A DNA stretch of 50,467 bases, from positions 1 to 50,467 of the forward strand of contig JAPLPD010000176.1 in NCBI GenBank assembly GCA_026400395.1. The letters run 5' to 3'. The notes under the pieces were generated by a model. It was not told the DNA's origin and did not search any database. It worked only from the letters and a program-made list of their open reading frames with translations. Position 1 is the stretch's first letter; each line of letters begins with the position of its first letter. Position numbers and translations under genes: made by a program. Source of the DNA: Alphaproteobacteria bacterium (GTDB lineage: Bacteria; Pseudomonadota; Alphaproteobacteria; Rhizobiales; Xanthobacteraceae). Shown in pieces: positions 30,212 through 49,217 of the stretch.

Positions 30212-31990
30212 CTACTTGCCGGTTTTAGTCCCAGCCGCCTTGTCCGGCGAGAAATACACATCGACCTTCATGCCGGTGGTCAGCAGACCGGGCTGCGTCA
30301 CCCGAAGCACGACCTCCACCGCCTCGACGTCGTTGCGGTTGCCCGACCCCCGCGAACTCATCCGCGACGGCTCGACCAGCGGCGCAATGGACGTCACCGT
30401 GCCGGCAAACTCCCGGTCGGCGAAAGCGGCGGCACGGATCGAGGCTGTTTGACCGACCTTGATGCCGGCCACATCGCGCTCATCCAGTTCCGCCCGCACG
30501 TTCAGCATCGAGACGTTGGCGACCAGAACCAGCGGCTGCTGCGCCGTCGGCGCGACCAGTTCACCGGGATTGATGTTGAGTTGCAGCACGGTGCCGTCGA
30601 TTGGCGCGCGGATGCGAAGCTTCTCCAGATTGACCCGGGCGAACGCCACATCGCCGCGCGCCGAGATAGTCTGCGCTTCGTTCGGCGTCGGCAGTGGCGC
30701 ATCGATGCCGCGAAACGCAGCCTGCCGCTTGCCAAGCTCATCCTTGGCGCGTGCCAGAGCCGCGCGAGCCTCGGCAAGCTCGGCCACCGGCTTGCCGCTG
30801 GCCCGCGTGGCCATCGCCGCCCGATCCACCGCGGCTTGGGCGTCGAACACAGCCGTCTCGGCCTCGGCAATCGCATCCTCGGCCCGGCGGCGGTCGCTGG
30901 CCTTGCCGGTCACCGTCGTTTCATCCCGCAAGCGCCGACGCATCGCGGCTTGGGTCTCCGCCGCCATGTAGCGCGACTGGATTTCGTCGTCGTTGAGCAG
31001 GATCATAGGCTCGCCGGCGAACACCGTGTCGTTGACCTTGACCAGCACCTTGCTGACCACGCCGATGGCGGGCGCAGCGACCTTGATGATGCCGGACAGC
31101 GGCTCAACGCGGCCGGGCGCCACCGCGAGCCAGCGCCTGTCGTTTTGCTGCGCCGACGCAGCCGAAGAAATTCCATCGCCACCCGGGGCCGTCGCCACGA
31201 CGACGCCCGCGATCAAAACCAGACCCAGGCCGCACAAAAGGGGCGCGTTGCGCTTCGACATGCTCATAATTTTTTTCAGAATATCCGACTTGTGCCCCGC
31301 CCCGCCGACTTCTTCGCGGACGATATGTCCGTCCTCGATATGAACGATCCGGCCGGCAAACGTGATCAGCCGCGGATCGTGGGTGACGACCAGCACGCTG
31401 CGGCAGGCATCCTTGGCGATGTCCGCCAGGATGGTCATCACCGCCTTGCCGTTTTCGCTGTCGAGCGCCGCGCTCGGCTCGTCGGCGAGGATCACCGAAG
31501 CGTCGCCGACCACCGCTCGGGCAATCGCCACCCGCTGCTGCTCGCCCCCGCTCAATTCGTTCGGGAAGTTTCCGGCCTTGCCGGAGAGCCCGACCCGAGC
31601 CAATGCCGCCAGCGACTTGTCCCGGGCGGCCTTGCCGCTTTCGCCTCGGACATCGAGCGCCAGCCGCACGTTGTCGGCGGCCGTCAGTGTCGGGAACAAG
31701 TGATAGGACTGGAACACGAAGCCTATGTTCTCCCGGCGAAGTCTTGCCAGATCCTCCGGCGTCTTGCCCGAGATCAAATCGCCCCGGACGCGGACGGCCC
31801 CTTCGGTCGGCGTCAGCATGCAACCGAGGATCGACAATAACGTGGTTTTGCCGCTGCCGGAGGGGCCCATCAATAGCGTCAATTCGCCGCCCTTGAGCGC
31901 CAGGTCGACACCCTTCAGCGCTCGAATTTGTGCGGCGCCATGGCCCAGGTCTTTGACGATGCCGGTCGCCTCCATCACCAGGACGGTCAT
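30212..31990 (-). CDS. Fused ABC ATPase and HlyD-type membrane-fusion protein of a DevBCA/MacAB-like exporter
   Basis: 592 aa from ATG at 31990. Residues 1-240 are a LolD/MacB/DevA-type ATPase: GPSGSGKT (42-49), FVFQSYHLFP, LSGGEQQR, ILADEPSAALD, VVTHDPRL. Residues ~247-266 are one membrane span (LLCGLGLVLIAGVVVATA) and the rest is an HlyD/DevB adaptor: lipoyl-like half APGRVEPLSGIIKVAAPAIG, an Ala/Glu-rich coiled coil, LRIRAPIDGTVLQLNINPGE, and a beta-barrel domain. Such parts are normally two genes. The join is at AAAAAAA (31270-31276); one A fewer would end the ATPase at TGA overlapping ATGAGC, a good start for the adaptor at 31267. So this is either a true fusion, slippage-made, or a sequence indel. 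The start overlaps the permease stop (ATGA). Confidence 0.85.
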   Translation of the reverse strand: MTVLVMEATGIVKDLGHGAAQIRALKGVDLALKGGELTLLMGPSGSGKTTLLSILGCMLTPTEGAVRVRGDLISGKTPEDLARLRRENIGFVFQSYHLFPTLTAADNVRLALDVRGESGKAARDKSLAALARVGLSGKAGNFPNELSGGEQQRVAIARAVVGDASVILADEPSAALDSENGKAVMTILADIAKDACRSVLVVTHDPRLITFAGRIVHIEDGHIVREEVGGAGHKSDILKKIMSMSKRNAPLLCGLGLVLIAGVVVATAPGGDGISSAASAQQNDRRWLAVAPGRVEPLSGIIKVAAPAIGVVSKVLVKVNDTVFAGEPMILLNDDEIQSRYMAAETQAAMRRRLRDETTVTGKASDRRRAEDAIAEAETAVFDAQAAVDRAAMATRASGKPVAELAEARAALARAKDELGKRQAAFRGIDAPLPTPNEAQTISARGDVAFARVNLEKLRIRAPIDGTVLQLNINPGELVAPTAQQPLVLVANVSMLNVRAELDERDVAGIKVGQTASIRAAAFADREFAGTVTSIAPLVEPSRMSSRGSGNRNDVEAVEVVLRVTQPGLLTTGMKVDVYFSPDKAAGTKTGK

Positions 31991-33120
31991 CGGGTGAACA
32001 CCACGGCCGGGTCGATACGGGTCACCTTCATAATCGCCGCGATCGCCGAGACCACGCACATAACGACGGTCAGCGCGAACAGGCCGACGCTGAGCGCAGG
32101 CGTGACGACAATCGGCAGCGCGCCCGCCGATGACAGATACACCACCAAAAGACTCACCAGGTAGGCGAGACCGAAACCGATCACCGCGCTCAGCAACGCC
32201 TGGCAGATGATGACGTTGTAGATGTAGCGGCGCGACGAACCGATGGCGCGCAGCGTGGCGAACTCGTTGAGGTGATCCTTGGTGCTGGAATAGAGAGTCT
32301 GCGCGACGATCACGGTACCGACGATGATGCCGAGCAACGCTCCGGCGAACAGCGCCGCACCCGCGCCGGTGCCGAACAGCCAGAACTGGCGGCTGCGCTC
32401 GCGAAACTCGCCCGGCGTCAGCACCTCGACATCGGTGAGGCTGTTCAGCAGGTCGCGGCGAACCTTCTGAACGTCCGCGCCCGCGGCGACGCGGACCAGG
32501 AAATAGGTCGCCTTGCTCGACGGGGTTCCGGTGTGGGCCCGCGCCCGATCGACATCCATGAACACATAAGGCGTCGTGGTGAACGAGCGGATGCCGTCAG
32601 TGACCACCGAGACGCGGACGCTCTGCTGGCGAATTTCCGCGCGCGCACCAAGCCCCGTGATGCCGAGCCGGTCGAAGTAGCTGCGGTCCACCGCGACCGC
32701 GTTCGGCGTGGACAGCGACTCGACGCGGCCGTCCACCACGTTCCATGGCTCAAGCCCGCCCGAGCGAAGGTCCGTCCCGACCACGAACACCGGCGTGGAT
32801 GAGCCGCCCGGCGTCCGCCAGTCGGAGAATCCGATCACCACGGGGACCGCTTCGACAGTGCCCGGCACCGCCAATGCACGGCTGCGCTGGCGCGTGTCCA
32901 GCAACGAGGGATCCTCGAAGCACTTCGTACCCTTCTGCATGATCCAGAGATCGGCCGACGCGTGATCGATCATGGTCGTCACCATCTGCCCGAAGCCGAG
33001 GTAGAGGCCCATCTGCACCGTCACCAGCACGATGGAGAACACGATACCGATCACCGTCGCGATGAATCGTAACCGATCGTGAAACAAATTGCGGAACGCG
33101 AGCGTGAAGACCAGTGGCAT
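31987..33120 (-). CDS. DevC/MacB-like FtsX-type ABC permease
   Basis: 377 aa. An N-terminal span (IATVIGIVFSIVLVTVQMGL) is followed by a large periplasmic domain (ASADLWIMQKGTKCFEDPSL, VIGFSDWRTPGG, FVVGTDLRSG) and three C-terminal spans (FAGALLGIIVGTVIVAQTLY, LLSAVIGFGLAYLVSLLVVY, VGLFALTVVMCVVSAIAAIM). ATLRAIGSSRRYIYNVI is the FtsX-type coupling region. Together with the downstream ATPase/adaptor protein it forms an exporter of the DevBCA/MacAB kind, moving glycolipids, peptides or drugs to an outer-membrane channel. It is translationally coupled (ATGA) to the ATPase. No TolC-like gene nearby. The upstream acyltransferase ends 48 bases before this start. Confidence 0.92.
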   Translation of the reverse strand: MPLVFTLAFRNLFHDRLRFIATVIGIVFSIVLVTVQMGLYLGFGQMVTTMIDHASADLWIMQKGTKCFEDPSLLDTRQRSRALAVPGTVEAVPVVIGFSDWRTPGGSSTPVFVVGTDLRSGGLEPWNVVDGRVESLSTPNAVAVDRSYFDRLGITGLGARAEIRQQSVRVSVVTDGIRSFTTTPYVFMDVDRARAHTGTPSSKATYFLVRVAAGADVQKVRRDLLNSLTDVEVLTPGEFRERSRQFWLFGTGAGAALFAGALLGIIVGTVIVAQTLYSSTKDHLNEFATLRAIGSSRRYIYNVIICQALLSAVIGFGLAYLVSLLVVYLSSAGALPIVVTPALSVGLFALTVVMCVVSAIAAIMKVTRIDPAVVFTR

Positions 33121-33168: not shown

Positions 33169-34419
33169 CTACCCCGGCAAATCGTCCTGCTTGACCAGCC
33201 TGGCCGGCGCCGGCTCGCCGAAGCTTGCGCCCATCCAGCGCTTGGCATGGGCCAGATGGCTGGCCCAGCGCACATTGCCGAAAGCCACAGCCGCGGACCA
33301 GCTCAGCGCCAAGGTGAAGCCGAACACGATCGCAGCCTTGCCGATTGCGAACAGCGCGACGGGCAACAGAGCGAACTGCAACCAGACGACAAAGATGTAG
33401 TGCAGCATGTACATGCTGTAGGCGTTGACCGAGAGGCTATCGAGAATTCGCGTCCGCTCCCGTGCGAAACTCAGACACAGCGCCAACAGGACGAAACAAC
33501 CGGTTGCGCAGGCCGTGACGAAGCCGATGCCGGCGGCGATCTGCACCGGCAGTGCCGCCTTCGCGCCGTCCAGCATCTGCGAGGTCGGCAACGCCCACAC
33601 CACGAAGCCCGCCACCGACGCAGCAAGCCAGGCGGGCCAGTGCCGCGCCAGCGCACCATCGATCGCCAGCAGGCCGCGATCGATGCCGTAAGCGCCGACC
33701 GCGCAGCCAGCGAAGAAGTAGATCAGATAGTGCAGCGAGCGGCTGATCTGGAACGAGAACGGCCCGAAGCTCACCCACTCCCATGGCGAATACGTCAGCG
33801 CGAGCGGCAGGTAGGCCGGAGCCGTCAACGCCGACAGCGCGGCGAAGAAACGAACCGGATGCGCGCGGCCGGTTGCGGCCATGCGTCCCAAACGTTCGCT
33901 CCAGCCGGGAACGAACCGTTGCAGGCCCGCCGCCAGCGCATTGAGCGCCAGCAGTTGCCAGAGGAACCACTGCGGCCCGCAAGGCCAGAACGGCAGCGCG
34001 GTCAGTTGCTGCCAATACGCGCTTACGCTCGGATCGGCGGCGGTCACACTATAGGGCGGGAAATAGGTGATCGGCGTCAAAAGCACGACAACCAGAACGA
34101 GCGGCAGACCGATGCGGAACAGCCGGTCCGAGATGAACGTGGCGCTGCCCTTTCGAGTCAGGCTCGACGGCACAAACAGGCCGGACAGAAAAAACATCAG
34201 CGACATCAGGCTGAGGTCCTGCCAGGCGCAGAACAGGTCGAAGCCGAAAAAGCGCTCGCTGTCGACGATCGGGATCGCCTGCCAGCGGTAGGGCGCCTCT
34301 CCGAACGGGCGGGCGACCGGCGGCAGCGATGCGAGGTAAGCCAGGATGGAATGAAACGCCAGAACCGTGACGATCACAACCGCGCGCAGGTTGCTCAGAG
34401 CCATGCTGGATCGTGACAT
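33169..34419 (-). CDS. Membrane acyltransferase, acyltransferase-3 (OpgC-like) family
   Basis: 416 aa with about ten hydrophobic spans. Family markers: SNLRAVVIVTVLAFHSILAY with the catalytic His in the first span, LSLMSLMFFLSGLFVPSSL, and FISDRLFRIGLP. The last span region (NAYSMYMLHYIFVVWLQFA) is also typical. Such proteins move acyl or succinyl groups onto extracytoplasmic sugars, glucans or lipids. Co-orientation and 48-base spacing to the exporter genes suggest a surface glycolipid or glycan role; this is inference. The start could be Met6 instead; no strong ribosome binding site precedes either. Confidence 0.88.
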   Translation of the reverse strand: MSRSSMALSNLRAVVIVTVLAFHSILAYLASLPPVARPFGEAPYRWQAIPIVDSERFFGFDLFCAWQDLSLMSLMFFLSGLFVPSSLTRKGSATFISDRLFRIGLPLVLVVVLLTPITYFPPYSVTAADPSVSAYWQQLTALPFWPCGPQWFLWQLLALNALAAGLQRFVPGWSERLGRMAATGRAHPVRFFAALSALTAPAYLPLALTYSPWEWVSFGPFSFQISRSLHYLIYFFAGCAVGAYGIDRGLLAIDGALARHWPAWLAASVAGFVVWALPTSQMLDGAKAALPVQIAAGIGFVTACATGCFVLLALCLSFARERTRILDSLSVNAYSMYMLHYIFVVWLQFALLPVALFAIGKAAIVFGFTLALSWSAAVAFGNVRWASHLAHAKRWMGASFGEPAPARLVKQDDLPG

Positions 34420-34767
34420 TGACGTTCGGGCCTCATGCAGATCGGCGCAGATGGCAGGACTGCCCCTGGCCCGATTGCTCCCAATCGTAATCGGTGTCCG
34501 GCGCGGATTCTCGTTTAGTTGCTACCTTAAAACTCCTCCGCGAGGAATGATCTGCGTCAATTTCACCTCGTTTCGTTAAGAATGAGCGCCCCCAAGTTGG
34601 ACGTTTCTTGGCCAACCGCCTGCAAAATGGCCCGGCTCGTTTCGTGAAACGGCCATATTATGGGGCGAAGAAAGTCGAGTCGTGGGGCCGTAAGGGAGTG
34701 TGGGGATCGGGCCGAGTCAGGTAGGGCTCGCGAGGATTGGTCGTGGTGCGCATTGGAAGGAACTGAC
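34420..34767. promoter_or_regulatory. Divergent control region with inverted repeat
   Basis: 348 bases without a gene between the acyltransferase and the DUF2147 gene. It is AT-richer than its surroundings around 34505-34600. CGTTTC (34638-34643) and GAAACG (34646-34651) form a compact inverted repeat next to CATATTAT (34653-34660), a possible -10 region for the rightward gene. No clear -35 was found. Confidence 0.35.
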
Positions 34768-35376
34768 GTGACAGCGAAACGGGTGACATTGGTCTTGTCT
34801 GCATTGGTCGCGTTGACGGGTTCCATGGTTCAGGCCGGTGCGGCGGAACCGTCCGTGGCGGGACTTTGGGAAAAGAGATCCGACAGCGGCAAACCCGGCG
34901 TGTGGTTTCTGTTCGTCGAGCATCCGGGCGGTCGATATGAGGGCGCCGTCGCCAAGGCGTTCCCGCGCCCCAACGAACCGCCAAACCAGGTCTGCGGCAA
35001 GTGCCTCGACGACCGGAAGAACCAGCCGGTGCTCGGCATGACCATCATCCGCGACATGATGCGGAAGGGCCTGGATTACGAGGACGGCAACATCCTTGAT
35101 CCGCGCGACGGCAGCGTTTACCGCGCGGTGATGAACGTCAGCCGCGATGGACAGGTTCTGACCGTGCGCGGCTATCTCGGCCATCCGATGTTCGGCATGG
35201 ATGAGGTCTGGCACCGGCTGCCAGACAACTCTCTTGCTGCAATCGATCCGGCGATCGTTGCGAAATACCTGCCCGAGAACGCTCGCGGCAGCGCGCCCGC
35301 GACCGCGCAGCGGGCGTCGCAGCCGGCGTCAAAGCCGAGACAGGGCTCCGCCACGGCGCAACCGCTGCCGCGCTAA
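34768..35376 (+). CDS. DUF2147-family secreted protein
   Basis: 202 aa from GTG 34768, with GGAAGG at 34755-34760; the longer frame from 34660 is not coding-like. A signal peptide ([18 protein letters not shown]) precedes the DUF2147 core: [79 protein letters not shown]2147 is a periplasmic lipocalin-like domain of unknown function. The two Cys in VCGKC are notable. The C-terminal ~40 residues are Ala/Pro/Gln-rich. It converges with the acyl-CoA dehydrogenase gene, overlapping by 4 bases. Confidence 0.88.
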
Positions 35377-47025: not shown

Positions 47026-47863
47026 ATGAGTTTAGGTATGGCTGCGCCCGTGTTGTGGCTCGCCGGCGCGCTGGCGGCGGTAGCGGTAGCGCCAGCGCAG
47101 GCGCAGGACTTTCCGAGCCGGCCGATCCGCATGATCGTTGGACTTCCGGCCGGCGGCGGCACCGACGTCCAGGCGCGGCTGGTGTCTCAGAAGCTCGCGG
47201 AAAACATGAAGACCACCGTCGTGGTCGAGAACAAGCCCGGCGGAAACTTCACTCTCGCCGCAAAGGAACTGGCCGCCGCGCCCGCCGACGGTCGGCGTGA
47301 AAACGGTGGGCGAGCTGATCGACCTGGTTAAGAAAAAGCCGGGCGGCATCAAGTTCGGCATGGGCGGCGGCAACGGCAGCTCCATGGGCTTGGCAACCGC
47401 GCTGTTTCAGACCAGCACCGGCACCAGCATCAATATGGTGCCGTACCGCGGCTCGGCGCCCGCCCTCAACGATCTGCTCGGCGAGCACATCGACGTGATG
47501 TTCGACGCCATGCCAATGATGTCGGTGCAGGCCAAGGAGGGGAAAGTCACCCCGCTCGCGGTCACCGGAGCGAAGCGCTCTGCAACCCTGCCTGATGTGG
47601 GCACCATGCGCGACGCCGGGCTGAAATACGAGCTGACCGGCTGGTATGGCATCCTCGCGCCGGCCGGGACGCCGCCTGCCATCGTGCAAAAGATCCGCGA
47701 CGAGGTGGTGAAGGCGGTGGCCCCGCCGGAGATCGTCAAAACGCTGGCCAGCCAGGGCATGGAGCCCCGCGCCACCCAGCCCGCCGACTTCGCCAAATAC
47801 ATGGCATCGGAATTCGCGTTCTACCGGCAGATCGTAAAGGACGCTAGCCTCAAGCCGGAATAG
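47026..47863 (+). pseudogene. Broken Bug/TctC substrate-binding protein gene (internal deletion with frame loss)
   Basis: It starts like an intact gene (ATG 47026; signal ending APAQAQ; VGLPAGGGTDVQAR; ENKPGGNFTLAAKELA) and breaks at 47290. The frame then ends at 47331. The rest of the protein continues in the +1 frame from about 47294 (GVKTVGELIDLVKKKPGGIK, GGGNGSSM, MVPYRGSAPALNDLLG, MSVQAKEGKVTP) to TAG 47863. Against the intact neighbour at 46011, about 137 bases (45 codons plus 2) between the DG of PDG and GVKT are missing. CGG occurs on both sides of the join, a possible short-homology deletion. No functional binding protein is expected. Confidence 0.85.
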
Positions 47864-48049: not shown

Positions 48050-49217
48050 ATGCCCTCTCGCGGCCCCTGGATCGATCACTTCCCCGACAATTTTCTCTGG
48101 TCGAACGCCACGCTCATCCTGAAGGGCATGGCGCCCTACGGCGTCGTCTCGCTGGAAGAAATGGATCGCTGCTGCGAAAAGCTCCGCACCCGCGAAGGTG
48201 AGGCAGACCGCGGCAAAGCATGGTTCGAGGAATGGCGTGCGCTCGGCGATCAGGTCGAGAAGCGCGGCGACGAGGCTCTCGCCAAGGGCCGCAAGATCAC
48301 CGCCGGCGACTACTATGTCCGCGCCGGAATCTATCATTACAACGCCGAGCGATTCATCTCACCCAGCTCCGAGAAAAAGGCGCAATGCGCCCACGCTTAC
48401 AAGCGTCTGGCATCAGGGCATCCGGTTGCGCCAGCCGAACGTCGAGTTCGTCGAGGTGCCTTATGAAGGCACCACCCTGCCCGCTCTGCTGATGAAGGCG
48501 CAGACCGGCGGCCCGGCCCCCACCGTCGTTGTGCTCAACGGCATGGACAACGCCAAGGAGATGAGCATCTTCTTTTGCGGTCTCGAATTCGCCCGCCGCG
48601 GCTACAACACGCTCTGCATGGACGGCCCCGGCATGGGCGAGACACGCCGGATGCGGGACATGCCGAGCCGCTTCGACTATGAGGTGCCCGGCGCCGCAGC
48701 CTTCGACTATCTCGCCAAGCGCCCAGACGTCGATGCCAAGCGCATCGCCATCATGGGCTACAGCTTCGGCGGCTATTACTCGTCGCGGGTCGCGGCCTTC
48801 GAGCATCGCTACGCCGCTTGCATCGCGCTCTCCGCGTTGCATTGGGATCTCGCCGCCTGGCAGCAGAAGATCAAGGACGCCAACAAAAATGCGCCGAAGT
48901 CGGTCGCGCAATCGAACTTCCAGTGGCGCTGGGTGGCCGGCGCCAAGGACGAGGATGAAGGCATCGAGATTGCGAAGACATTCTCGCTGAAGGACGTGGC
49001 GAAGAATATCGCCTGTCCGTTCCTTGTCACCCACGCCGGCAACGACCGCGTCGTGCCGGTGGAGAACGCGCAAAAGCTCTATGACGCGGTCGGCTCGGCC
49101 AACAAGACCATCATGATTTTCACCACGGAGGAAGGCGGCGCCGAGCACGCCCACGTCGACAACCGCCAGGTCGGCATCGATTTCGCCGCGGATTGGCTGG
49201 CGGAGAATATGAAATGA
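48050..49217 (+). pseudogene. Frameshifted second copy of the DHPON-hydrolase-like alpha/beta hydrolase
   Basis: ATG 48050 (after AAAGGA) opens a frame matching the 39961 hydrolase cap: FLWSNATLILKGMAPYGVVS, AGDYYVRAGIYHYNAERFI. At about 48403-48410 the match jumps to the +1 frame: VWHQGIRLRQPNVEFVEVPY, then GMDNAKEMS, IAIMGYSFGGYYSSR (nucleophile Ser), LVTHAGNDRVVPV and GGAEHAHVDNRQVG. One extra base (or two fewer) explains it; a run of five A lies 25 bases upstream (48374-48378). All catalytic residues remain, so the break is recent, an error in the sequence, or suppressed. The stop overlaps the next start (ATGA). Confidence 0.85.

Follow-up and report, generated by a model that had tools for sequence, protein, structure and literature searches.

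Apparent ATPase-adaptor fusion in a DevBCA/MacAB-like exporter operon: a one-base difference private to one assembly, more likely error than biology

The DNA analysed here, called the window throughout, is a 50,467-nucleotide stretch of an Alphaproteobacteria bacterium of the Xanthobacteraceae (assembly GCA_026400395.1, contig JAPLPD010000176.1). In it, the ABC ATPase and the HlyD-type adaptor of a putative exporter are read as one frame of 592 residues, and by sequence comparison this join is private to the assembly among those examined. The reading that we favour, at somewhat better than even confidence, is that the fused frame reflects a one-base length difference in a run of As, most likely a sequencing or assembly error. 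On this reading the cause of the join is unremarkable: where two coupled genes meet, this assembly alone differs by one base, which is more likely error than biology and does not point to a new kind of protein. In the living cell, an ATPase of about 240 residues and an adaptor of about 350 residues would be made as separate proteins, with the adaptor presumably translated by termination-reinitiation at an ATGA.

The exporter operon

On the minus strand of the window, from 33120 down to 30212, lie a MacB/DevC-type permease, an ABC ATPase and an HlyD-type adaptor, in that order. The features discussed below are as follows.

33169 to 34419, minus strand: acyltransferase-3 family gene upstream of the permease, a neighbour kept in relatives (open reading frame; synteny; Acyl_transf_3)
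31987 to 33120, minus strand: permease of DevC/MacB type, 377 residues (MacB_PCD and FtsX, Pfam)
30212 to 31990, minus strand: single open frame, ATPase then adaptor, 592 residues (translation without a stop; both domains by Pfam)
31268 to 31990, minus strand: ATPase part, 241 residues as far as the join, a DevA/MacB-type nucleotide-binding domain (ABC_tran, 1.1e-31)
31270 to 31276, minus strand: seven As at the join (TTTTTTT on the plus strand; read from the sequence)
30212 to 31267, minus strand: adaptor part, 351 residues, an HlyD/DevB-type periplasmic adaptor (HlyD_D23 and HlyD_3, Pfam)
31256 to 31267, minus strand: ATGAGCATGTCG, site of the adaptor start in relatives (MSKR...), containing ATGA (comparison with relatives)
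31184 to 31246, minus strand: most hydrophobic part of the 592-residue frame, about residues 249-269 (mean hydropathy of 2.35 over the best 19 residues)

The permease matches MacB_PCD (4e-16) and FtsX (9.1e-15), both above the Pfam cut-off, and thus has a MacB periplasmic core and an FtsX-like C-terminal domain. In the 592-residue protein, ABC_tran covers residues 25-173 above its cut-off, and HlyD_D23 covers residues 456-542 (1.5e-17), with HlyD_3 also above cut-off; the frame of the adaptor part is open through to its stop codon. The best NCBIfam relative of the permease is DevC (TIGR01185), at 156.9 bits against a cut-off of 290.35, and that of the ATPase is the DevA family (TIGR02982), at 208.3 bits against 295.8. 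Since neither score reaches its cut-off, the operon is not DevBCA proper. The closest NCBIfam relatives of the ATPase are DevA, MacB and LolD, each below its own cut-off, which places it in the MacB/LolD/DevA group. The hydrophobic stretch at about residues 249-269 is probably the membrane anchor of the adaptor, and an HlyD-family adaptor with such a stretch, encoded beside an ATPase, is the arrangement of tripartite exporters. Judged from these domains, the operon is an ordinary DevBCA/MacAB-like tripartite exporter and a new member of that group, with export as its predicted function.

Two known systems frame this assignment. In the Anabaena DevBCA-HgdD glycolipid exporter, the DevC permease, DevA ATPase and DevB adaptor are encoded by separate genes of one operon (PMC8277102). 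The window operon resembles it in that its permease and ATPase have DevC and DevA as their best NCBIfam relatives, but it differs in gene order (permease, ATPase, adaptor, as opposed to devB-devC-devA), in its neighbours, which include the acyltransferase and a UbiD-like gene among others, and in that ATPase and adaptor are read as one frame in this assembly. With MacAB-TolC it shares a MacB_PCD/FtsX permease, a MacB-like ATPase and an HlyD-type adaptor. MacB itself, however, carries ATPase and permease on one chain (PMC8277102), whereas in the window the ATPase has a gene apart from that of the permease and seems to be joined to the adaptor instead.

The Acyl_transf_3 match in the upstream gene spans 33169-34404 (Pfam, 6.3e-23). 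Together with a divergent DUF2147 gene, this gene adjoins the exporter at 33169-35376, a pairing that is kept in congeners and in some relatives that are more distant. It is possible that these two neighbours are functionally linked to lipid or envelope modification, and the acyltransferase hints at, but does not prove, a modified lipid or sugar as the substrate of the exporter.

An A run at the join of the two parts

The 592-residue frame starts at the ATG of the ATGA that closes the permease gene, so that these two genes overlap by ATGA at 31987-31990. Around the join the codons read CTG AAA AAA ATT ATG AGC ATG TCG. The earlier note had described a single frame of this length with seven As at 31270-31276, and the translation, which carries both Pfam domains, bears this out. 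Its observation that the TGA inside ATGAGC lies one frame away from the ATPase frame is likewise correct; ATGAGC begins at 31267, and a second ATG (ATGTCG) lies at 31261.

Translationally coupled gene pairs of the ATGA kind have been described in general terms (PMC6728339). The permease/ATPase pair of the window is of this kind, as are the ATPase/adaptor pairs of 15 of the 36 relatives compared below, and the ATGA within ATGAGCATGTCG resembles the overlap in those relatives. The ATPase/adaptor pair of the window departs from this pattern in that the ATPase frame misses the TGA of the second ATGA.

Nowhere else in the window does a base occur seven or more times in a row. In 613 kb of the genome of the window, in-gene A or T runs of seven number just eight, the one at the join included, and its position within a few bases of the gene boundary of relatives is therefore unusual.

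Separate ATPase and adaptor genes in relatives

We collected junction loci from named genome contigs and from genome searches. Seventy-six loci gave 37 distinct junctions including that of the window; 39 were dropped as duplicates or because the adaptor was not found. The window was alone in having a fused ATPase and adaptor (0 of the 36 others). In 29 of the others the two genes lie in different frames, and in seven they share a frame with an intervening stop. At one locus (L003) the genes overlap in different frames and are thus separate. In 15 of the 36 the adaptor could begin at an ATGA overlapping the stop of the ATPase, in agreement with the start proposed in the earlier note, and in one more at a GTGA, although some of these starts may differ from the one really used.

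Wider searches gave a similar picture. At the family level, 55 of 391 genomes matched at 1e-75, with four rows other than the window spanning both parts, all of them with stops. An order-level sample yielded matches in 6 of 397 genomes at 1e-90 and three such rows, again all with stops, and a class-level sample of 385 genomes matched only the genome of the window at 1e-90 and was uninformative on junctions. The three samples overlap, and each contains the genome of the window. Among loci L001-L134, no further open reading frame of at least 450 codons held both an ATPase and an adaptor part; the distant loci L011-L079 were checked solely for such frames.

Ten congeners were searched, of which four (G001, G005, G007 and G009) matched both parts closely and the other six gave weaker ABC matches only. 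Three of the four (G001, G005 and G007) have the gene order acyltransferase, permease, ATPase, adaptor and then three genes that we take to encode UbiD, an amidohydrolase and TctC, with DUF2147 adjoining the acyltransferase; in G001 the locus lies on one contig of 8.19 Mb. The ATPase of the window is 72 to 79 percent identical to those of these three, and their ATPases measure 241-242 residues, close to the roughly 240 of the window ATPase if separate. Orthology of the window locus with the congener loci is secure on these sequence comparisons.

In these three congeners ATPase and adaptor are separate genes. G007 and G001 have an ATGA overlap, with the adaptor beginning MSKR, after one or two residues, at the place where ATGAGCATGTCG sits in the window. 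In G005 the adaptor (MAKS) begins three bases past the ATPase stop, at the place matching ATGAGCATGTCG. The genes are also separate in G009, a more distant congener. The DNA of the ATPase tail before the adaptor start looks dissimilar between species by eye, and it has no long A run. Because the orthologous congeners have separate genes, the two-gene layout is ancestral, as the earlier note had suggested, and the fused frame arose in this lineage or in its data. The note had further stated that close relatives all encoding separate genes with six As would make the join an error. Only half of this pattern was found: the genes are separate, but between a point 60 bases ahead of the ATPase stop and the place where the adaptor match begins, none of the 36 other junctions had an A run longer than five.

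A high density of frame breaks in the parts of the assembly sampled

We looked for frame breaks with a codon-usage frame tracker, trained per genome, in which every change of frame costs a penalty. With the penalty chosen, it recovered 65 of 100 one-base changes that we had planted, missing about a third, and it also gives false positives, as flagged places exceed those that pass a strong filter; a change at a gene boundary, such as the join, would escape it. The stretches scanned were a convenience choice and not a random one. Flagged places fell on filtering from 23 to 12 in the genome of the window (613 kb), from 3 to 0 in G001 (400 kb), from 5 to 2 in G007 (412 kb) and from 2 to 1 in G005 (417 kb). 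The density of strong breaks in the sampled parts of the window genome is thus about eightfold that of the three congeners (12 in 613 kb versus 3 in 1,228 kb), and 12 of 15 breaks fell in an exposure share of 0.33 (binomial p 0.0003). Three of the twelve are doubtful: L170:10242 looks by eye like a plain gene boundary, and those at 47290 and 48410 of the window are marked as possible boundaries. Leaving them out, 9 of 12 breaks lie in the genome of the window (G000; p 0.004). It therefore seems that the assembly or the strain has unusually many broken genes, two of them possibly in the window.

Pfam was run on the pieces of nine of the twelve breaks, leaving out L158:1672, L170:10242, L190:5666 and the three breaks in control genomes. 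At five of the nine (L167, L189, L190:18944, L192 and L198) the two pieces match consecutive parts of one Pfam domain, with the upstream piece of L167 just under its cut-off. In four of these five, at least 20 profile positions are absent between the pieces, so those breaks do not look like a one-base change. At L161 one piece carries an ABC domain and the other the C-terminal domain of branched-chain transporters, and at the two window sites and at L155 only the downstream piece has a match. Apparently frame-broken genes elsewhere in the genome of the window include those at L155:11588, L161:9033, L167:13384, L189:7319, L190:18944, L192:4106 and L198:4755.

Within the window, a TctC-type receptor gene at 47038-47863 has a frame change near 47290 that the filter marks as a possible gene boundary. 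Downstream of the change the TctC profile is matched from position 90 onward; the upstream piece, which has no match, resembles by eye the start of a TctC-type receptor. The other site, near 48410, lies in an alpha/beta hydrolase-like gene at 48050-49214; a frame change is likely there, and it too is flagged as a possible gene boundary.

The breaks do not plainly follow homopolymers. The sampled assembly has 80 in-gene runs of at least six equal bases, and not one of them has a detected break within 150 bases; in the first 388 kb, the other seven in-gene runs of at least seven are likewise free of nearby breaks. The breaks elsewhere are therefore not tied to homopolymers.

Weighing the explanations

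The earlier note had offered a genuine fusion, slippage on the A run or an indel error as causes of the join. Of these, a one-base indel remains, which may be an error or a young private mutation, and the apportioning between them is a matter of judgement. We infer that the seventh A is most likely an error, and it is the roughly eightfold excess of strong frame breaks in the sampled parts of the assembly that tips us this way. Where BLASTp validates a frame transition that only one genome shows, a sequencing error is expected and not a true indel (PMC3711429), an expectation that fits the detected breaks directly and the join by analogy only. Against an error we count that in-gene homopolymers of six or more are not near breaks, that four of the five Pfam-supported breaks do not look like one-base changes, and that the detected breaks could be real decay. 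The first of these observations also favours the main competitor, in which the seventh A is real and a young private mutation fused the genes, so that the cell makes ATPase and adaptor as one chain of 592 residues, perhaps along with some adaptor that is initiated internally, and has a pump that works poorly or not at all or tolerates the tether. This is a tenable but distinctly less probable account. The adaptor part is open to its own stop, and hydropathy suggests that the fusion would keep the topology, with the ATPase inside, then a short link, the anchor at about residues 249-269 and the adaptor outside. The excess of frame breaks and the absence of fusion from the 36 other junctions speak against it, as does the make-up of MacAB-TolC, in which a hexamer of MacA meets a single MacB dimer (PMC5985334): if the window pump is built in the same way, strict 1:1 chains would bring in more ATPase domains than the pump has room for. 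That the seven As are real and yield a single-chain ATPase-adaptor subunit, perhaps alternating reversibly with separate proteins as the run changes in length, we consider improbable.

A fusion that is old and selected, giving a real single-chain pump subunit, is the least credible of the accounts. The 592-residue frame is open, and the estimated Shine-Dalgarno energies at the two adaptor ATGs of the window (-3.3 and +0.4 kcal/mol) are weaker than the best ones in the three congeners (-4.9, -4.4 and -4.9), as if independent initiation of the adaptor mattered less. Other relatives have estimates as weak (L119, -2.1; L128, -2.2; L007, -2.2), however, and the fusion is shared by none of the 36 others, congeners included, nor by any further long frame in L001-L134. 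The portions of PMC8277102 and PMC5985334 used here mention no natural ATPase-adaptor fusion. We rejected this explanation, since none of the 36 other junctions has the fusion, and the genuine fusion proposed in the earlier note, taken as an old one, was found in no relative examined. Programmed or productive slippage on the A run by RNA polymerase or ribosome, yielding both fused and separate proteins, is very unlikely. The run coincides with the join, and on paper a ribosome slipping by +1 on AAA AAA A would read TTA TGA in frame, though nothing supports such a slip. Yet seven As are short, productive slippage having been described for nine-base runs and, in some IS elements, for runs of eight (PMC1088944), and the run is not conserved in the 36 other junctions. 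Transcriptional insertions are prevalent in A/T runs, and 80 percent of them add one nucleotide (PMC5574713); here one extra A would shift reading to the third frame. That frame ends at 31104 and gives neither the fused nor the ATGA layout. With no conserved run and a third frame that closes there, conserved programmed slippage was rejected, and the dual products envisaged in the earlier note find no comparative support.

Implications

If the fusion were real, the exporter would be a tripartite pump with its ATPase covalently tied to its adaptor, and it would test how a machine of two ATPases and six adaptors handles 1:1 chains. The assembly carries a warning of its own, since it seems rich in broken genes. 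Where two genes are coupled by ATGA, a difference of one base can mimic a gene fusion, and comparison of the junction across relatives exposes the mimic.
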